DNA of 64,000 bases from Arcobacter sp. (GTDB taxonomy: Bacteria > Campylobacterota > Campylobacteria > Campylobacterales > Arcobacteraceae), in contig PKUK01000008.1 of NCBI GenBank assembly GCA_002869535.1, positions 664,351 through 728,350 of the forward strand, written 5' to 3'. Below, piece after piece: positions 3-58,504 of this stretch; position 1 is the first letter of the stretch, and each line of letters begins with the position of its first letter. A program made the translations under genes and the position numbers. Under the pieces are notes generated by a model that was not told the DNA's origin, ran no database searches, and saw only the letters and a program-made list of their open reading frames with translations.

Positions 3-761
3 TCAATAATGGCTTTATATATTTTAGCAAATGCATATGTAATTACTATTTTACAAGGGAATCTAAGCTCATCATTGTTCTTGGAAACAGTTCCTTTAAG
101 TGATCCATTTGCTGTTTTACAAATGTTTTTTGCAGGTGCCTTAATATCAACAAATATACTAGTAGGTGCATCAATAATAACACTCTTTTATTTTTTAGTT
201 GGTGGTAGAGTTTTTTGTTCATGGGTATGTCCAGTAAATATAATAACTGATTTAAGCTCATTTATTAGAAGAAAACTAGGATTTGATACTATACAAAAAA
301 AACAACCAGCTAGTAGAAATATGAGATATTGGGTTTTAGCTCTTACCCTTGTACTTTCAACAATCTTAGGATTGGGTGCATTTGAATTTATTTCACCAAT
401 ATCTATGGTTCACAGAGGTTTGGTTTTTGGTCTTGGATTTGGTTGGGCTGCAATGCTTATCATTTTTCTTTTTGATCTTTTTGTTTTAAAAAATGGATGG
501 TGTGGACATATTTGTCCTCTTGGTGGATTTTATTCACTTGTAGGAAAATATAGTTTTCTAAGAGTTGATCATAATCATGATAAGTGCACAGAGTGTATGA
601 AGTGTAAAGAAGTGTGCCATGAAAATCAGGTTTTATGGATGATTAAAAAAGAGTCTATTCCTGTGTTGTCTGGTGAGTGCACTAATTGTGCTAGATGTAT
701 TGAAGTTTGTGAAGATGACGCTTTAAATTTTTCAATAATCAATAGATTTGAAAAAAAATAG
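3..761 (+). CDS. napH: NapH, quinol dehydrogenase membrane subunit (5' end outside window)
   Basis: Membrane iron-sulfur protein that passes electrons from the quinol pool toward periplasmic nitrate reductase. The frame is open to the window edge, so the N-terminus is missing; the ATG at 9 lies inside the first membrane segment and is not the true start. Counting from that Met, about four hydrophobic segments are visible, with CxxxCP motifs at 70-75 and 165-170 and two ferredoxin-type 4Fe-4S motifs (CTECMKCKEVC at 193-203, CTNCARCIEVC at 224-234). napB follows after 9 bases. The order H-B-F-L-D is the usual epsilonproteobacterial nap arrangement; napA and napG would be expected just upstream. 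Confidence 0.93.
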   Translation, partial: SIMALYILANAYVITILQGNLSSSLFLETVPLSDPFAVLQMFFAGALISTNILVGASIITLFYFLVGGRVFCSWVCPVNIITDLSSFIRRKLGFDTIQKKQPASRNMRYWVLALTLVLSTILGLGAFEFISPISMVHRGLVFGLGFGWAAMLIIFLFDLFVLKNGWCGHICPLGGFYSLVGKYSFLRVDHNHDKCTECMKCKEVCHENQVLWMIKKESIPVLSGECTNCARCIEVCEDDALNFSIINRFEKK

Positions 762-770
762 GAGAAAAAA

Positions 771-1379
771 ATGAAAATTACTAAAATAGCTTTAGGGTTA
801 GCAACAGTAACTGCAATATTTGTTACAGGTTGTACAATAGCTCAAAAAACTTATTCTGAAGAGTCTTTAGGATTAAGAAAGGTAGATATTTATACTGAAA
901 ATAGTATTGTTCCAGATAAAACAGACTATACAAAACCTGCTGCTGGAGCATCAACAAAGATTGATAGAGCATTTGAAAATGCTCCTCCAATGATTTCACA
1001 TGATGTTGAAGGAATGTTACCAATAACAATAAATAATAATCAATGTATTGTTTGTCATGACCCAGCAGTTGCAGCTTCTATGGGAGCAGTTCCAGTTCCA
1101 TTGACTCACTTTACAGATTTAAGACCGCAAACTTCTTTAAATGAAAATGGTAAAATAGTAAAAGAGGGAAATGTTGTTGATAATACAAGTGATTTAAAAG
1201 TTCCAAAACAAAAAGAACTTGCTCATTTAGCAGGTGCAAGATTTAACTGTACTCAATGTCATGCTCCACAATCAGATACAAAATTGATTGTTGAAAATAA
1301 TTTTGAAGCTGATTTTAGAAAAGATGGTGATAACAAATCATCAAATTTAATAGATAATATCAATGAAGGTGTTAAATAA
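771..1379 (+). CDS. napB: NapB, di-heme cytochrome c subunit of periplasmic nitrate reductase
   Basis: Small electron-transfer subunit that feeds the NapA catalytic subunit in the periplasm. The 202-residue protein has two CxxCH heme c motifs (CIVCH at 92-96, CTQCH at 160-164) and family-typical histidines at 77, 113 and 152 that could be axial ligands. The N-terminus is a signal peptide whose cleavage region reads VTGC at 18-21, which looks like a lipobox, so the protein may be a lipoprotein rather than soluble. A ribosome-binding site (aggag) precedes the ATG. It sits 9 bases after napH and 3 before napF. Confidence 0.95.
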   Translation: MKITKIALGLATVTAIFVTGCTIAQKTYSEESLGLRKVDIYTENSIVPDKTDYTKPAAGASTKIDRAFENAPPMISHDVEGMLPITINNNQCIVCHDPAVAASMGAVPVPLTHFTDLRPQTSLNENGKIVKEGNVVDNTSDLKVPKQKELAHLAGARFNCTQCHAPQSDTKLIVENNFEADFRKDGDNKSSNLIDNINEGVK

Positions 1380-1382
1380 CTT

Positions 1383-1856
1383 ATGAAAAGAAGAGAGCTA
1401 TTTAGCTCTCTTGCTTCATCATTTAAAAATGAAAAGCAAGAGAAAGTAATACGTCCACCATATTATGATGATGAAGAACTCTTTTTAAAAGAGTGCATTA
1501 AATGTGAAGGCTTGTGTGCTGATGCTTGTGAAGTGAATATAATACTTATTCAAGATGACAAAACTCCAAAATTAGATTTTTCAAATAGTGGCTGTACATT
1601 TTGTGATGAGTGTGCAAAAGTATGTCCTAGTGAAGTTTTAAAACTTGAGTATAAAAAAAATATTAGTGCAAAAGTGGAAATAAATGTTTTAGAGTGTTTA
1701 AGTTGGAACCAAACTATGTGTTTTTCTTGTAAAGACCCATGTTTAGACGATGCAATAACTTTTTTAGGAATGTTTAGACCTGAGATAAATGACGCTTGTA
1801 CTTCATGTTGATTTTGTTTAAAAGTTTGTCCAACAAATGCAATTAAAATAGGATGA
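1383..1856 (+). pseudogene. napF: NapF, ferredoxin-type protein, interrupted by in-frame TGA
   Basis: Cytoplasmic ferredoxin-like protein of the nap system, thought to act in NapA maturation or electron supply. Read through, it has 157 residues with four cysteine groups: CIKCEGLCADAC, CTFCDECAKVC, CLSWNQTMCFSC and CTSC-stop-FCLKVCP. The TGA at 1809-1811 (codon 143 of 158) falls exactly where ferredoxin motifs have Gly (CxxCGxC), so GGA to TGA is the simplest explanation. After it the frame continues to a TGA at 1854-1856 that overlaps the napL start as ATGA, the normal spacing of an intact operon. As written, the last cluster would be lost. Confidence 0.85.
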
Positions 1857-2809
1857 AAATGAATATTTTAAAGATTTTATTTATACTGTTTTTAATATCT
1901 TCATTAAATGCCAATGAAGTATTGCCAACAAAAAGAGTTGATATAAGTGCAGGAGCAACTGACTTAGTAATAAGTGATAATAAACTATATGTATCAACAA
2001 AAGCAGGTATTGTAAATATTTTTAATTTAAATGATTTTAAGCTTCTATCAAATATTGCTATTGCCAAAACAAAAGACTTTATGGGAGAGATAAGTGATAG
2101 TAAAATATACTCCATAGATGTTTTAAAGGATAAAGTTTTAATATTATCTCAAGGTCAAAAAGGTGCAAGAAGAATTGATATTTTTCAAAATCAAAAATTG
2201 ATTAATATTATTTCTGATGAAAAAAGATTGTTTATTGCCCAAGCAAAATTTATAAATGAAAATGAAATTATATTTTCACTTTTAAGTAATGAACTACTCT
2301 TATATAATATGAGTACAAAAAAGTTTATCTACAATATACAAGTTAGTCAATCAAAGTTTTCATCTTTTGCATTAGATGAAAATAAAAAGAGAATTATAAT
2401 TGCAGATGAAAGTGGAAACTTAAAACTATATGATGTTCAAAATGGAAATTTGCTAAAAACATATAAAGGCCAAAATCTAGATAATGTATTTCAAGTTGAC
2501 TTTAAAAATGATAAAATACTAACAGCAGGGCAAGATAGAAGAGCTGTATTTTATTCAAAACTTGACACGTATTATAAAGAATCAAATTTTTTAATTTATT
2601 CTTCTGCTTTGAATTTTGATGGATCATTAGGAGCCTATGCTTCAAATGAAAACAGTGATGTAACTATTTTTGATACATCGTCAAAAAAGAATTTATTTAA
2701 ATTAAAAAAAAATAAAATGACACTTACTAAAATTTTATTTATAAATAACAATGAAGTTTTAGTTGCAAGTGATGATAAAACAATAAATTATTATAAATTA
2801 AAGGAATAA
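1853..2809 (+). CDS. napL: NapL-like periplasmic beta-propeller protein
   Basis: Accessory protein of epsilonproteobacterial nap operons with no settled biochemical function. The 318-residue product starts with a signal peptide (hydrophobic residues 4-18, cleavage probably after SLNA) and then has repeated strands with WD/PQQ-like blade character, for instance ISAGATDLVISDNKLYVS and KLYDVQNGNLLKTYKG. The ATG overlaps the end of the extended napF frame by four bases and the gene ends one base before napD, so it is co-transcribed. The name rests mainly on gene order and propeller-like sequence. Confidence 0.8.
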   Translation: MKMNILKILFILFLISSLNANEVLPTKRVDISAGATDLVISDNKLYVSTKAGIVNIFNLNDFKLLSNIAIAKTKDFMGEISDSKIYSIDVLKDKVLILSQGQKGARRIDIFQNQKLINIISDEKRLFIAQAKFINENEIIFSLLSNELLLYNMSTKKFIYNIQVSQSKFSSFALDENKKRIIIADESGNLKLYDVQNGNLLKTYKGQNLDNVFQVDFKNDKILTAGQDRRAVFYSKLDTYYKESNFLIYSSALNFDGSLGAYASNENSDVTIFDTSSKKNLFKLKKNKMTLTKILFINNNEVLVASDDKTINYYKLKE

Positions 2810-2810
2810 A

Positions 2811-3194
2811 ATGAACATTTCAAGTATTGTAGTTCAAACACTACCAAAATTTTTAGATACAGTTTTAGAAGAGATAAAAAGTTGTAAAGCCTGTGATTAT
2901 CATATGCATGATGAAAAAGGAAGAATTATAATTACAATTGAAGGTGAAAATGTAAACCAAGAGTTAGAAAAGCTAAGAGTAATAGAAGCAATTCCACATG
3001 TAATAAGTGCTGATATGCAAATGGCATATAGTGAGGATGAACTTAATGAAAATATTGATGTTCTTAAAAACTCTGATGCTGTTCCATCTATGTTAAATGA
3101 TGAAAATAAAGATCCAAATAAAATAATTTATAATGGAGATTTAAAGAAAAAAGATATCTATGGGTTTGCAAAACACTTAGAAAATAATAAATAA
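2811..3194 (+). CDS. napD: NapD, chaperone for NapA
   Basis: Cytoplasmic chaperone that binds the twin-arginine signal of the NapA catalytic subunit before export. The first 80 or so residues match the NapD fold: MNISSIVVQT at the N-terminus, then the strand GRIIITIEGEN and the stretch IEAIPHVISADMQMAYSEDE. At 127 residues it is longer than many NapD proteins (about 80-90), with an extra acidic, lysine-rich tail. It begins one base after the napL stop and ends the operon, followed by an AT-rich gap with a candidate terminator. Confidence 0.88.
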   Translation: MNISSIVVQTLPKFLDTVLEEIKSCKACDYHMHDEKGRIIITIEGENVNQELEKLRVIEAIPHVISADMQMAYSEDELNENIDVLKNSDAVPSMLNDENKDPNKIIYNGDLKKKDIYGFAKHLENNK

Positions 3195-31112: not shown

Positions 31113-31243
31113 AGCTAGGATTGTACTATAAGAATAATTAAGTAATAGAAATTTTATTTTTAATTATTTTTAAAAATATCTATTAATTAAATTATTTAAG
31201 AGTAGTGATGATAGAATACTTTTACATTTTTCAAAGGCATCAG

Positions 31244-33088
31244 ATGGTTTCAAAACGTAAAATATCATTTTCACTTTTTTTAGTAATGGCAGTTATGTTC
31301 ATTATCCTTATTTTAAACATTTTAATGAATTTTCGTGATTACGGATTACAAAGTGTTGAAAATAAGGCTAAAGCAATCGCTCAAACTGTAAAACATAGTT
31401 TAACTTCCCATATGGTTAATGGAGTTATTGACAATAGAGAATTATTTCTTCAACAAATTACAAAATTAGAAAATATCGATAATATTTGGCTATCAAGAGC
31501 ACCTGCGGTTATTGAACAGTTCGGTATAGGTAATAATAATGAAGTGGCAAGAGATAGTATTGATGAAGAAGTATTGCACACAGGAAAAGAAAAAGCAGTA
31601 ATTGATGAAAAAATCTTTGGTAAAAGTTCTTATAGAATAACTATTCCCTATATTGGTTCATCAGAGGGAACTATAGATTGTCTATCTTGTCATACTACTG
31701 CAAAAAGTGGTGATACATTAGGGGCAATAACAATTAGTATGTCTGTTGATGATATAAAAGAAGTTGGTATTATAACTGTTGGAAATACCATTGTTATTGC
31801 ATTAGTACTGATTATTTTTATATTAATTTTTGTAAATAGACTTATCTCACCATTTTTAATGCTATTTGATTCAATAAATCGTGTTATGAAAAAAGCACAA
31901 AAAGGTGACTACTCAGATAGAATTGGTTTAACAAATGGTAAAGAGAGTGATTCAGTAGCAAGTTGTATTGACAGTTTATTGGAAAAACTTCAAACAACCC
32001 TAGATGATATCGAACAAAAAATCAATGTCTTTTTAGTTCATCAAAAAACAAAAAAAGAAGATCCACTTATTGATGTAAAATTAACAGTTAATCGACTTGC
32101 TGATATTTATAGATTTAGAAAAACAATAGAACATGATGAATATATAAATGAAGTATATGACCGGTTAGCCTATGTACTTAAAGACAAATTTAAATTATCG
32201 GATTTTAATTTTATTGAAGCTGATACTACCCATAAGAATGTAGAAATTGTTTATGTTGAAAAAGAGATTCACTGTGCTGCACAGGATGGTTGTAGAGCAG
32301 ATAGAACAAATACCCTTGTTGATTCATGTCAGTTCCATGATATATGTGACAAGTTCAATCATGACACAAATAAATATTACATATGTATTCCTTATTCAAT
32401 TTCAAATGATTTAGACTTTATTGTATCAATTATTTGTGATACAAAAGAAGAGAATGAAAGAGTACGTGCTTTATCTCCATCAATACAAGATTATATTGAT
32501 GCTGCAAAACCTGAAATAGTTAGTAAAAAACTTATGCAAATATTAGAACTAACGGCAAGAACAGACCCTTTGACTGGCCTTTTTAATAGAAAATATCTTG
32601 AAGAGTCAGTTAAAACAATGATATCACAAGTAAAACGTTCTGATATAAAATATGGTATTTTAATGGTAGATATAGATTTCTTTAAAATGATTAATGACAA
32701 TTATGGACACGATGTGGGGGATCAAGCAATAAAAGTAATTTCCCAAACACTAATTGAAAATACAAGAGAATCTGACACAGTTATAAGATATGGTGGAGAA
32801 GAGTTTGTTGTTCTGCTTTATAATTGTGATGAAAATTATTTATTTGATGTATCAGAGAAAATAAGAATAGCTTTCTCAAAAAAAGAGATACCAGCGGGAA
32901 CAATCACTTTCAACAAAACAATAAGTATTGGTTCTTCAATTTTCCCACTACATACAGACAATTTTTGGCAATGTCTAAAATTTGCAGATCTTGCCTTGTA
33001 TAATGCAAAAGATACTGGTAGAAATAAATCTGTTATATTCTCACCAGACCTAATAAAAGACAGTGAACTAAATGAGCAACAGTATTAA
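31244..33088 (+). CDS. Diguanylate cyclase with periplasmic c-type heme motif
   Basis: Membrane-bound GGDEF protein, 614 residues from the ATG at 31244 (AAAGG six bases upstream; a GTG at 31205 is possible but less well placed). A membrane helix near residues 10-30 is followed by a periplasmic domain of about 150 residues that holds CLSCH (146-150), a CxxCH heme c attachment motif. A second helix (about 182-200) leads to a HAMP-like segment, a cytoplasmic linker and the GGDEF domain, with TDPLTGLFNRK, GGEEF and an RxxD inhibitory site five residues before it. Heme sensing of redox or gas is inferred. The linker also contains several Cys and His residues. Confidence 0.85.
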   Translation: MVSKRKISFSLFLVMAVMFIILILNILMNFRDYGLQSVENKAKAIAQTVKHSLTSHMVNGVIDNRELFLQQITKLENIDNIWLSRAPAVIEQFGIGNNNEVARDSIDEEVLHTGKEKAVIDEKIFGKSSYRITIPYIGSSEGTIDCLSCHTTAKSGDTLGAITISMSVDDIKEVGIITVGNTIVIALVLIIFILIFVNRLISPFLMLFDSINRVMKKAQKGDYSDRIGLTNGKESDSVASCIDSLLEKLQTTLDDIEQKINVFLVHQKTKKEDPLIDVKLTVNRLADIYRFRKTIEHDEYINEVYDRLAYVLKDKFKLSDFNFIEADTTHKNVEIVYVEKEIHCAAQDGCRADRTNTLVDSCQFHDICDKFNHDTNKYYICIPYSISNDLDFIVSIICDTKEENERVRALSPSIQDYIDAAKPEIVSKKLMQILELTARTDPLTGLFNRKYLEESVKTMISQVKRSDIKYGILMVDIDFFKMINDNYGHDVGDQAIKVISQTLIENTRESDTVIRYGGEEFVVLLYNCDENYLFDVSEKIRIAFSKKEIPAGTITFNKTISIGSSIFPLHTDNFWQCLKFADLALYNAKDTGRNKSVIFSPDLIKDSELNEQQY

Positions 33089-56758: not shown

Positions 56759-58504
56759 TCAAAAAGACAATTTATTTCTACCTTCATTCTTTGACTTATA
56801 TAGTAAGATATCTAGTCTTTTAAAGAGTTCATCTACGGATTCATCATTTTGATACTCTACTAGTCCTATACTTATAGTTACTTGTTTTACATTTTCATTA
56901 AATTTATGTTCTGAAACACTTTTTCTAACTCTTTCAGATACTATACAAGCATCTTTTAGCATTGTATTTTTGTATATTATTAAGAACTCTTCTCCCCCAT
57001 ATCGTCCCATAATATCACTCTCTCTTAAAAAATTATTAACAAAAGAGGAGAGAGTACATAAAACTATATCGCCTACATCATGTCCATAATTATCATTAAT
57101 ATCTTTAAATTTATCAATATCAAACAATGCTATACACAAATTTCCACCACATCTACTCAATTTACGAATTTCTTGTTCCATAATATTCATGATTGAATAT
57201 CTGTTGTGAATTTTTGTCAAAGCATCTGTTGTAGCTAACACTTCTAAGGATTCTCTTGATTTTTCAAGTTCTTCAGTTCTATCTTTAACTTTATCCTCTA
57301 ATGATTTATTTAACTGCTTTAGTTCACCTGATTTATTTAAAATTCTACTTTTATATTTTAAAAACTGTGACTTTAAATACTTAGATACAACATATGAACA
57401 TACTAATGATATAAGTATAGATATAAACCCAATAGTTAGAATGTAGCTAATTCTCATATGATAATCTTCATATAGTTTTGTTACTTGTACTGCTGCATTT
57501 GACTTAATTGTAGATTCGTAAAACCCACTTCCTATTATCCAGTTTGTATTTGGCACTTTTTTTATATAGCTGTATTTTACTTCCTCTTTATTTGTTTCAG
57601 GATTTACCCAACTATATCTTGAAAATTTATTATCAACACTCTTTATGCTTTTTAATAAAAGTAAATAAACATCTTTTATACTTTTATCTTTAATCTTGTA
57701 GAAGTTCTTATTTACATATTCAGGTGTACTATCATTTAAAAGTATATTACCATTTGTATCAAATACAAAAATATACTCACTTGTATTTTCACTAATTTTT
57801 TGAATAGCTTTTAGTATTTCATTACTACTTATTTTTGATGCTGTTTCTAAATACTCACCTGAACCCAAATATAAATTGTAAAAACCTAATGCTTTTACAA
57901 AAACAACTTGATCATAACTATTTGTAGAAGGATCAGTTGGTTTTGTAAACTTATCCCATAAAAAGCCTTCATTTTTTGTTTTAACTGTTTCAATCTCTTC
58001 TTTGATTACAAATATTCCATTTGCATCTTGAAAATCAATTATTGAAGTTCCCTCTAAATGTTTTAGATAATTTGGTGCTAGATGAAAGACACCATTATAA
58101 TCTAATATAAAAATAAAGCTTTCATCATTATTCCAAGACAAAGGTGATAAAGAAGTAATAATTAAAGACTTTATCTCTTTTTGACTTTTTGTATTTTTAT
58201 ACTTGTTATATATATTTGTTGCAATTTTATGTGAGCTATTAACTCTATCTTTTATTCGAAGTGTTAACTTTTTAACAGTAAGATCATTTTGGTAAGCAAT
58301 TAAGTCAGAAATTCCATCAATTTTTGATTTAATAGCTTTTTTTTCAATATTTATAAGATTTTCTTCAACTTTTGATAAGGTCTTTTCAAAATTTTGTTCA
58401 TGTTCAATAATTATAATTAAAATTATTGCAATTACAAATAATGGAATAAAAATCAAAGGTCCAATAGCAATAATTTTAATTAAATTACTTTCTCTACTTT
58501 TCAT
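56759..58504 (-). CDS. Cache-domain diguanylate cyclase
   Basis: Membrane-bound sensor cyclase, 581 residues. The first helix (about 10-33) is followed by a periplasmic Cache-type domain to about residue 345, with YDQVVFVKALGFYNLYLGSG and PNTNWIIGSGFYES, features of small-ligand sensors. The second helix (about 350-372) leads to a coiled coil (KQLNKSLEDKVKDRTEEL) and a GGDEF domain with TTDALTKIHNRYS, GGEEF and an RxxD (RESD) site five residues upstream, so feedback inhibition is likely. The ligand is unknown. It ends near the structured region after efp. Confidence 0.88.
   Translation of the reverse strand: MKSRESNLIKIIAIGPLIFIPLFVIAIILIIIIEHEQNFEKTLSKVEENLINIEKKAIKSKIDGISDLIAYQNDLTVKKLTLRIKDRVNSSHKIATNIYNKYKNTKSQKEIKSLIITSLSPLSWNNDESFIFILDYNGVFHLAPNYLKHLEGTSIIDFQDANGIFVIKEEIETVKTKNEGFLWDKFTKPTDPSTNSYDQVVFVKALGFYNLYLGSGEYLETASKISSNEILKAIQKISENTSEYIFVFDTNGNILLNDSTPEYVNKNFYKIKDKSIKDVYLLLLKSIKSVDNKFSRYSWVNPETNKEEVKYSYIKKVPNTNWIIGSGFYESTIKSNAAVQVTKLYEDYHMRISYILTIGFISILISLVCSYVVSKYLKSQFLKYKSRILNKSGELKQLNKSLEDKVKDRTEELEKSRESLEVLATTDALTKIHNRYSIMNIMEQEIRKLSRCGGNLCIALFDIDKFKDINDNYGHDVGDIVLCTLSSFVNNFLRESDIMGRYGGEEFLIIYKNTMLKDACIVSERVRKSVSEHKFNENVKQVTISIGLVEYQNDESVDELFKRLDILLYKSKNEGRNKLSF

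Follow-up and report, generated by a model that had tools for sequence, protein, structure and literature searches.

A gene in the 64,000-nucleotide stretch of DNA analysed here (the window) probably encodes a membrane enzyme that makes c-di-GMP in response to a periplasmic heme. Less certainly, a second, cytoplasmic cofactor bound by cysteines acts as a further input to c-di-GMP synthesis. The product is thus probably a diguanylate cyclase with a periplasmic heme-c input and a second cytoplasmic input, both cofactors being predicted (Table 1). A cyclase with a periplasmic heme domain is of an already known kind (heme-Cache); the inner cysteine-rich GAF domain appears not to have been described previously. 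In the literature searched, which was thin on subscription journals, no account was found of the GAF cysteine module and its pairing with a heme domain, of Fe-S GAF diguanylate cyclases, or of a heme-c cyclase from Campylobacterota.

Table 1. Features of the predicted heme-c diguanylate cyclase and their positions in the window.
Feature	Positions	Strand	Basis or description
Whole coding sequence, 614 aa	31244..33088	+	TM1 - heme-c Cache/PAS-like domain - TM2 - HAMP-like linker - Cys-rich GAF - GGDEF
TM helix 1, residues 9-27	31268..31324	+	Hydropathy
Periplasmic heme-c Cache/PAS-like sensor domain, residues 28-176	31325..31771	+	AF2, Foldseek, profile search
Met57, predicted distal axial heme ligand (= Met60 of GSU0935)	31412..31414	+	Alignment with 3b42
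CLSCH, predicted heme c attachment motif; C146, C149, H150 (proximal ligand)	31679..31693	+	TGT CTA TCT TGT CAT; conservation
TM helix 2, residues 183-201	31790..31846	+	Hydropathy
HAMP-like linker, residues about 202-255	31847..32008	+	Below Pfam cut-off; HAMP-like by analogy with relatives
Cytoplasmic GAF domain, residues 262-432	32027..32539	+	AF2, Foldseek; not recognised by Pfam
Cys344, first conserved GAF cysteine	32273..32275	+	140/147 rows
Cys350-Arg-Ala-Asp-Arg-Thr355 (CRAxRT motif)	32291..32308	+	C350, R351 invariant in alignment of 49
Cys368, invariant GAF cysteine	32345..32347	+	Alignments of 27 and 49
Cys381, invariant GAF cysteine	32384..32386	+	Alignments of 27 and 49
GGDEF diguanylate cyclase domain, residues 439-595	32558..33028	+	PF00990 E 6e-44, full length
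I-site R508-E-S-D511 (c-di-GMP product inhibition)	32765..32776	+	Motif reading, RxxD
GGEEF active-site signature, residues 517-521	32792..32806	+	Motif reading

The reading frame starts with ATG at 31244 and ends with the stop codon at 33086-33088. An alternative in-frame GTG start at 31205 is possible; the position of the ATG is the start in most orthologs. Hydropathy analysis identified exactly two membrane helices, with the CxxCH motif between them on the periplasmic side. Both this arrangement and the exact CLSCH motif had been reported in a first-pass annotation of the same DNA, and its assignment of a GGDEF domain with an I-site was confirmed by the Pfam match and the two motifs listed in Table 1. 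The metal-site residues of the GGDEF domain, D476 and D478, are also present. Two relatives (L092 and L093) have a degenerate GGDEF signature (LSGDEF and YSGDTF) with heme and GAF motifs kept, and are possible effectors or receptors. In paralog B (L004, G000:C5:512976), TDKE replaces the I-site RxxD before GGEEF.

Attachment of heme c to the periplasmic domain, as read from the sequence, is highly probable. CxxCH was kept in 30 of 30 orthologs examined and in all seven paralogs aligned. Since shuffling of the residues of the whole protein generated such a motif in only 0.37% of shuffles, its presence in all of these proteins excludes chance. Other invariant periplasmic columns in an alignment of 27 sequences were W82, R131, T133-I134-P135-Y136 and L159-G160, next to C146, C149 and H150. 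Among relatives, CxxCH was invariant wherever a heme-type periplasmic domain occurred. The same genome encodes ResB (system II maturation), and petC-like and napB-like CxxCH proteins are encoded within the window.

Structure prediction of the periplasmic domain, which the first-pass annotation had suggested, yielded a Cache/PAS layout (AF2, pLDDT 82.8) in which the CxxCH helix (domain residues 119-122) is located between the last two strands (101-110 and 131-141). The top Foldseek match of this model was 3b42 (GSU0935; E 1.6e-6). A profile of 47 relatives (A6), a wider alignment that also takes in four more remotely related heme proteins of the same genome, returned 3b42 as the best of 177,635 PDB sequences, colinear and at E 2.2e-4; the narrow periplasmic alignment (A2) reached it only at E 1.2. 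Judged by sequence profile and by modelled fold, the closest solved structure is the heme-c domain of GSU0935, a Geobacter chemoreceptor. Because the periplasmic domain is too divergent, no Pfam model matched it in the window protein, and the cut-offs of PF11845 and PF21563 were both missed. PF11845 was matched in 5 of 27 relatives (best E 0.0029), and hhalign gave a remote link to this family over 42 columns. A methyl-accepting chemotaxis protein (MCP) of the same genome (L243/L246) bridges the window domain to both families, falling narrowly short of the PF21563 cut-off at E 1.5e-5. The first-pass annotation had named the DUF3365/Tll0287-like types for comparison; homology to them is only remote, and the nearest characterised domains are of the GSU0935/GSU0582 type.

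GSU0935 and GSU0582 (PDB 3b42 and 3b47) share with the window protein the fold, the TM-periplasm-TM layout, the place of CxxCH between the last two strands and, if the ligation predicted here is correct, the distal Met in the N-terminal helix. Identity is only about 16%, and the output differs, being an MCP in the Geobacter proteins and a GGDEF cyclase with an extra, conserved-cysteine GAF in the window protein. Met57 (profile position 24 of A6) pairs with chain residue 26 of 3b42, in which residues 106-110 are CQSCH. As the corresponding motif of GSU0935 is numbered C140, C143 and H144 (PMC8396549), chain residue 26 equals Met60. In GSU0935, Met60 is the distal ligand and leaves upon oxidation or upon binding of NO or CO (PMC8396549). 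Heme ligation in proteins of this type is His/Met or His/water. The position of Met57 was occupied by Met in 45 of 47 relatives. In one same-genus paralog group (L005, L006 and L007, the latter being G000:C5:15829) it is Val or Ile, with CxxCH and the GAF cysteines retained, indicating that ligation differs among close relatives. The paralog at C5:15829 comes from the same genome as the window and offers a naturally occurring variant in which distal ligation can be compared.

A 2026 preprint united GSU0582/GSU0935 and DUF3365/Tll0287 as sCache_heme, present in >50% of Campylobacterota genomes (PMC12889525). Members of sCache_heme (PF11845) resemble the window protein in that signalling outputs, GGDEF among them, are fused to a heme-c Cache domain (PMC12889525), whereas the Tll0287-like relatives carry an insertion of roughly 18 residues after CxxCH that is absent from the window domain, as is a PF11845 match. 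The term GAF has zero occurrences in the main text of the preprint.

NO or redox state is likely to be the signal. Alternatively, the heme might serve in electron transfer or purely as a sensor of redox potential, with NO not sensed physiologically. Such a role would agree with the potentials of GSU0582 and GSU0935 (-156 and -251 mV), for which redox sensing was proposed, and with the Met-release model (PMC8396549), as well as with a respiratory neighbourhood that comprises nap-like genes at the start of the window and bc1-type genes after argB/thrC. It is nevertheless unlikely, since a HAMP-fused signalling member of sCache_heme bound NO strongly and released it slowly, whereas no stable complex with O2 formed (PMC12889525), and GSU0582 and GSU0935 also bind NO (PMC8396549).

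The first-pass annotation had connected the periplasmic heme c to c-di-GMP output via a HAMP domain and GGDEF. Conservation of CxxCH among orthologs, whose absence that annotation had named as refuting its idea, the structural evidence and the GGDEF domain supported the two ends of this route. Its middle was not recovered as such: Pfam returned no HAMP (PF00672) match in the window protein even at E <= 10, and the linker, in which P203 and G221 are invariant, is HAMP-like only by analogy with relatives (HAMP at E 0.004 in L089 and E 1e-8 in L090).

The GAF module between linker and GGDEF was absent from the earlier annotation. GAF or GAF-like structures (LuxR-type ligand-binding, CodY) accounted for almost all of the 50 best Foldseek matches of its AF2 model (pLDDT 77.4; cysteine loop weakest, with pLDDT 54-59 over modelled-domain residues 91-120). 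Pfam assigned no family to the window GAF, a single relative in the set of 49 matching GAF_2 at E 1.2e-4, and the GAF alignment, used as a profile against the PDB, gave no meaningful match. In the alignment of 27 sequences, C344, C350, C368, C381 and much of CRAxRT were invariant. C350, R351, C368 and C381 were also invariant in a 49-row alignment (23-84% identity), a hand-chosen set that leaves out L089 and L100 (cysteines lost) and L088 (shortened copy) so that the figure describes conservation within copies that carry the cysteines. A regular expression for a CRAxRT-type motif picked 147 non-identical rows, of which 140 had an upstream Cys near the position of C344 and 137 an upstream CxxCH. 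With C344 missing in seven of these rows, four thiolates are not strictly required. Compensation of this loss by an extra Cys was considered and dropped, extra Cys being equally common when C344 was present. The occurrence of a GAF with four conserved cysteines between linker and GGDEF indicates that the heme is probably not the sole input.

It is reasonably probable that the GAF cysteines form a metal site, either iron-sulfur or zinc; the site is quite possibly Fe-S, and zinc is improbable. The spacing in the window protein, Cys-X5-Cys-X17-Cys-X12-Cys, does not match that of AirS from S. aureus (Cys-X7-Cys-X-Cys-X17-Cys; PMC4601167), whose cysteine-ligated Fe-S sensing resides in an N-terminal region. 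CSK/Hik2 are Fe-S sensor kinases, and CSK would be comparable in its cysteine-ligated Fe-S sensing in a GAF domain. Unlike the window protein, AirS and CSK/Hik2 have kinase outputs, other cysteine spacings and no periplasmic heme. Lcd1 from Leptospira (PDB 5w10), the top Foldseek match of the GAF model, likewise has a GAF directly before GGDEF, but binds cAMP and is 11% identical to the window GAF. By description, GSU2622 similarly combines a heme c motif with HAMP, GAF and a c-di-GMP enzyme (PMC8396549); its HAMP/GAF/HD-GYP arrangement gives a phosphodiesterase-type output, whereas the window protein is a cyclase.

Should the GAF cysteines instead hold structural zinc, or act as a zinc-thiolate/disulfide switch, the heme-c NO/redox sensor alone would drive the cyclase. 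In one diguanylate cyclase, a zinc-binding CZB domain exerts control through oxidation, and one study reportedly describes an HOCl-responsive c-di-GMP sensor of the CZB kind. Dispensability of C344 and the frequent CxxC in the loop of relatives (CETC, CQAC) are compatible with zinc. However, the X5-X17-X12 spacing spans a low-confidence loop, the window copy is without two tight CxxC pairs, and the GAF metal sites in the cases compared are iron-based (non-heme iron in NorR, Fe-S in CSK), so that zinc with the heme as sole sensor is rather improbable.

Control of GGDEF by both a heme-c redox/NO sensor and a cytoplasmic metal-cysteine GAF, the full mechanism proposed here, is fairly likely. The heme c on C146/C149 would have H150 as its proximal ligand and Met57 as its distal, redox-labile one, and would sense redox state, NO or both. 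Once oxidation or the binding of NO had removed the Met ligand, the N-terminal helices would shift against the beta-sheet, and this rearrangement would be passed through TM1/TM2 and the HAMP-like linker to the cytoplasm. There, it would meet the GAF domain, whose conserved cysteines would hold a second cofactor, a [2Fe-2S] or [4Fe-4S] cluster being the likeliest. In this way, GGDEF dimerisation and c-di-GMP output would integrate the redox/NO signals of both compartments. The identity of the ligand, the type of cluster and the sign of regulation are predicted elements of this scheme. A two-compartment sensor with an outer c-type heme and an inner Fe-S cluster, in which c-di-GMP is set by comparing periplasmic and cytoplasmic redox/NO, is proposed only tentatively. 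If it applies, Fe-S sensing would gain a new domain in the CRAxRT GAF, which has so far been found only in Campylobacterota. The GAF module would represent a new cysteine-based sensor type unseen by Pfam, and the protein makes testable a link of denitrification or redox gradients to attachment and motility in Arcobacter and Sulfurimonas relatives.

Searches at genus and family level yielded orthologs at about 49-84% identity, the nearest named relatives being Arcobacter genomes and bins. The genome itself holds three full-length copies, two of them paralogs with 36-37% identity to the window copy, and most family genomes searched (92 of 104; E <= 0.001) carry a member or relative. The window copy is at a conserved locus: the gene order UvrD-like helicase - DGC - argB was kept in most orthologs examined, indicating true orthologs under long-term selection; these neighbours gave no functional clue. 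In a contig scan with alignment A3, the Cys-rich GAF was found only in Campylobacterota, an absence elsewhere that is as good as the one pattern used. Nearly all of the 80 loci kept were titled Campylobacterota or their genera, and a few 'bacterium' or 'Proteobacteria bacterium'. No GAF homolog was found on plasmids.

Relatives that have no heme motif and whose sensor is shortened or of another type (L081-L087, L090 and L091) retained the GAF cysteines, and the heme-bearing L089 and L100 were without them, which indicated that the two modules are separable. In a tree of 50 rows, midpoint-rooted for drawing only, the heme-less group formed one supported clade with long branches, and L089/L100 were placed at the root; L109 was labelled heme-less in this tree yet has CLTCH. 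The existence of relatives without CxxCH, together with the finding of no Campylobacterota member with demonstrated heme in the literature searched, could suggest that the motif is not hemylated but vestigial or a metal site, which is very improbable because in those relatives the entire periplasmic domain has been shortened or exchanged for another, the motif is otherwise invariant and ResB is encoded in the genome.

About ten heme-c sensor proteins were noted in the same genome: three heme-GAF-GGDEF proteins, three GGDEF-EAL proteins, one MCP and three proteins carrying Tll0287-like domains, of which at least two are apparently kinases (loci given: G000:C5:436197, C7:230079, C7:5661, C5:226876, C1:46130, C2:38993 and C2:26566). 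By reading only, ORFs at 9-3194 of the window resembled napH, napB, napF, napL and napD of a periplasmic nitrate reductase cluster. The minus strand at 56759-58504 encodes a further GGDEF protein, which has an extended periplasmic region at its N terminus and lacks CxxCH.
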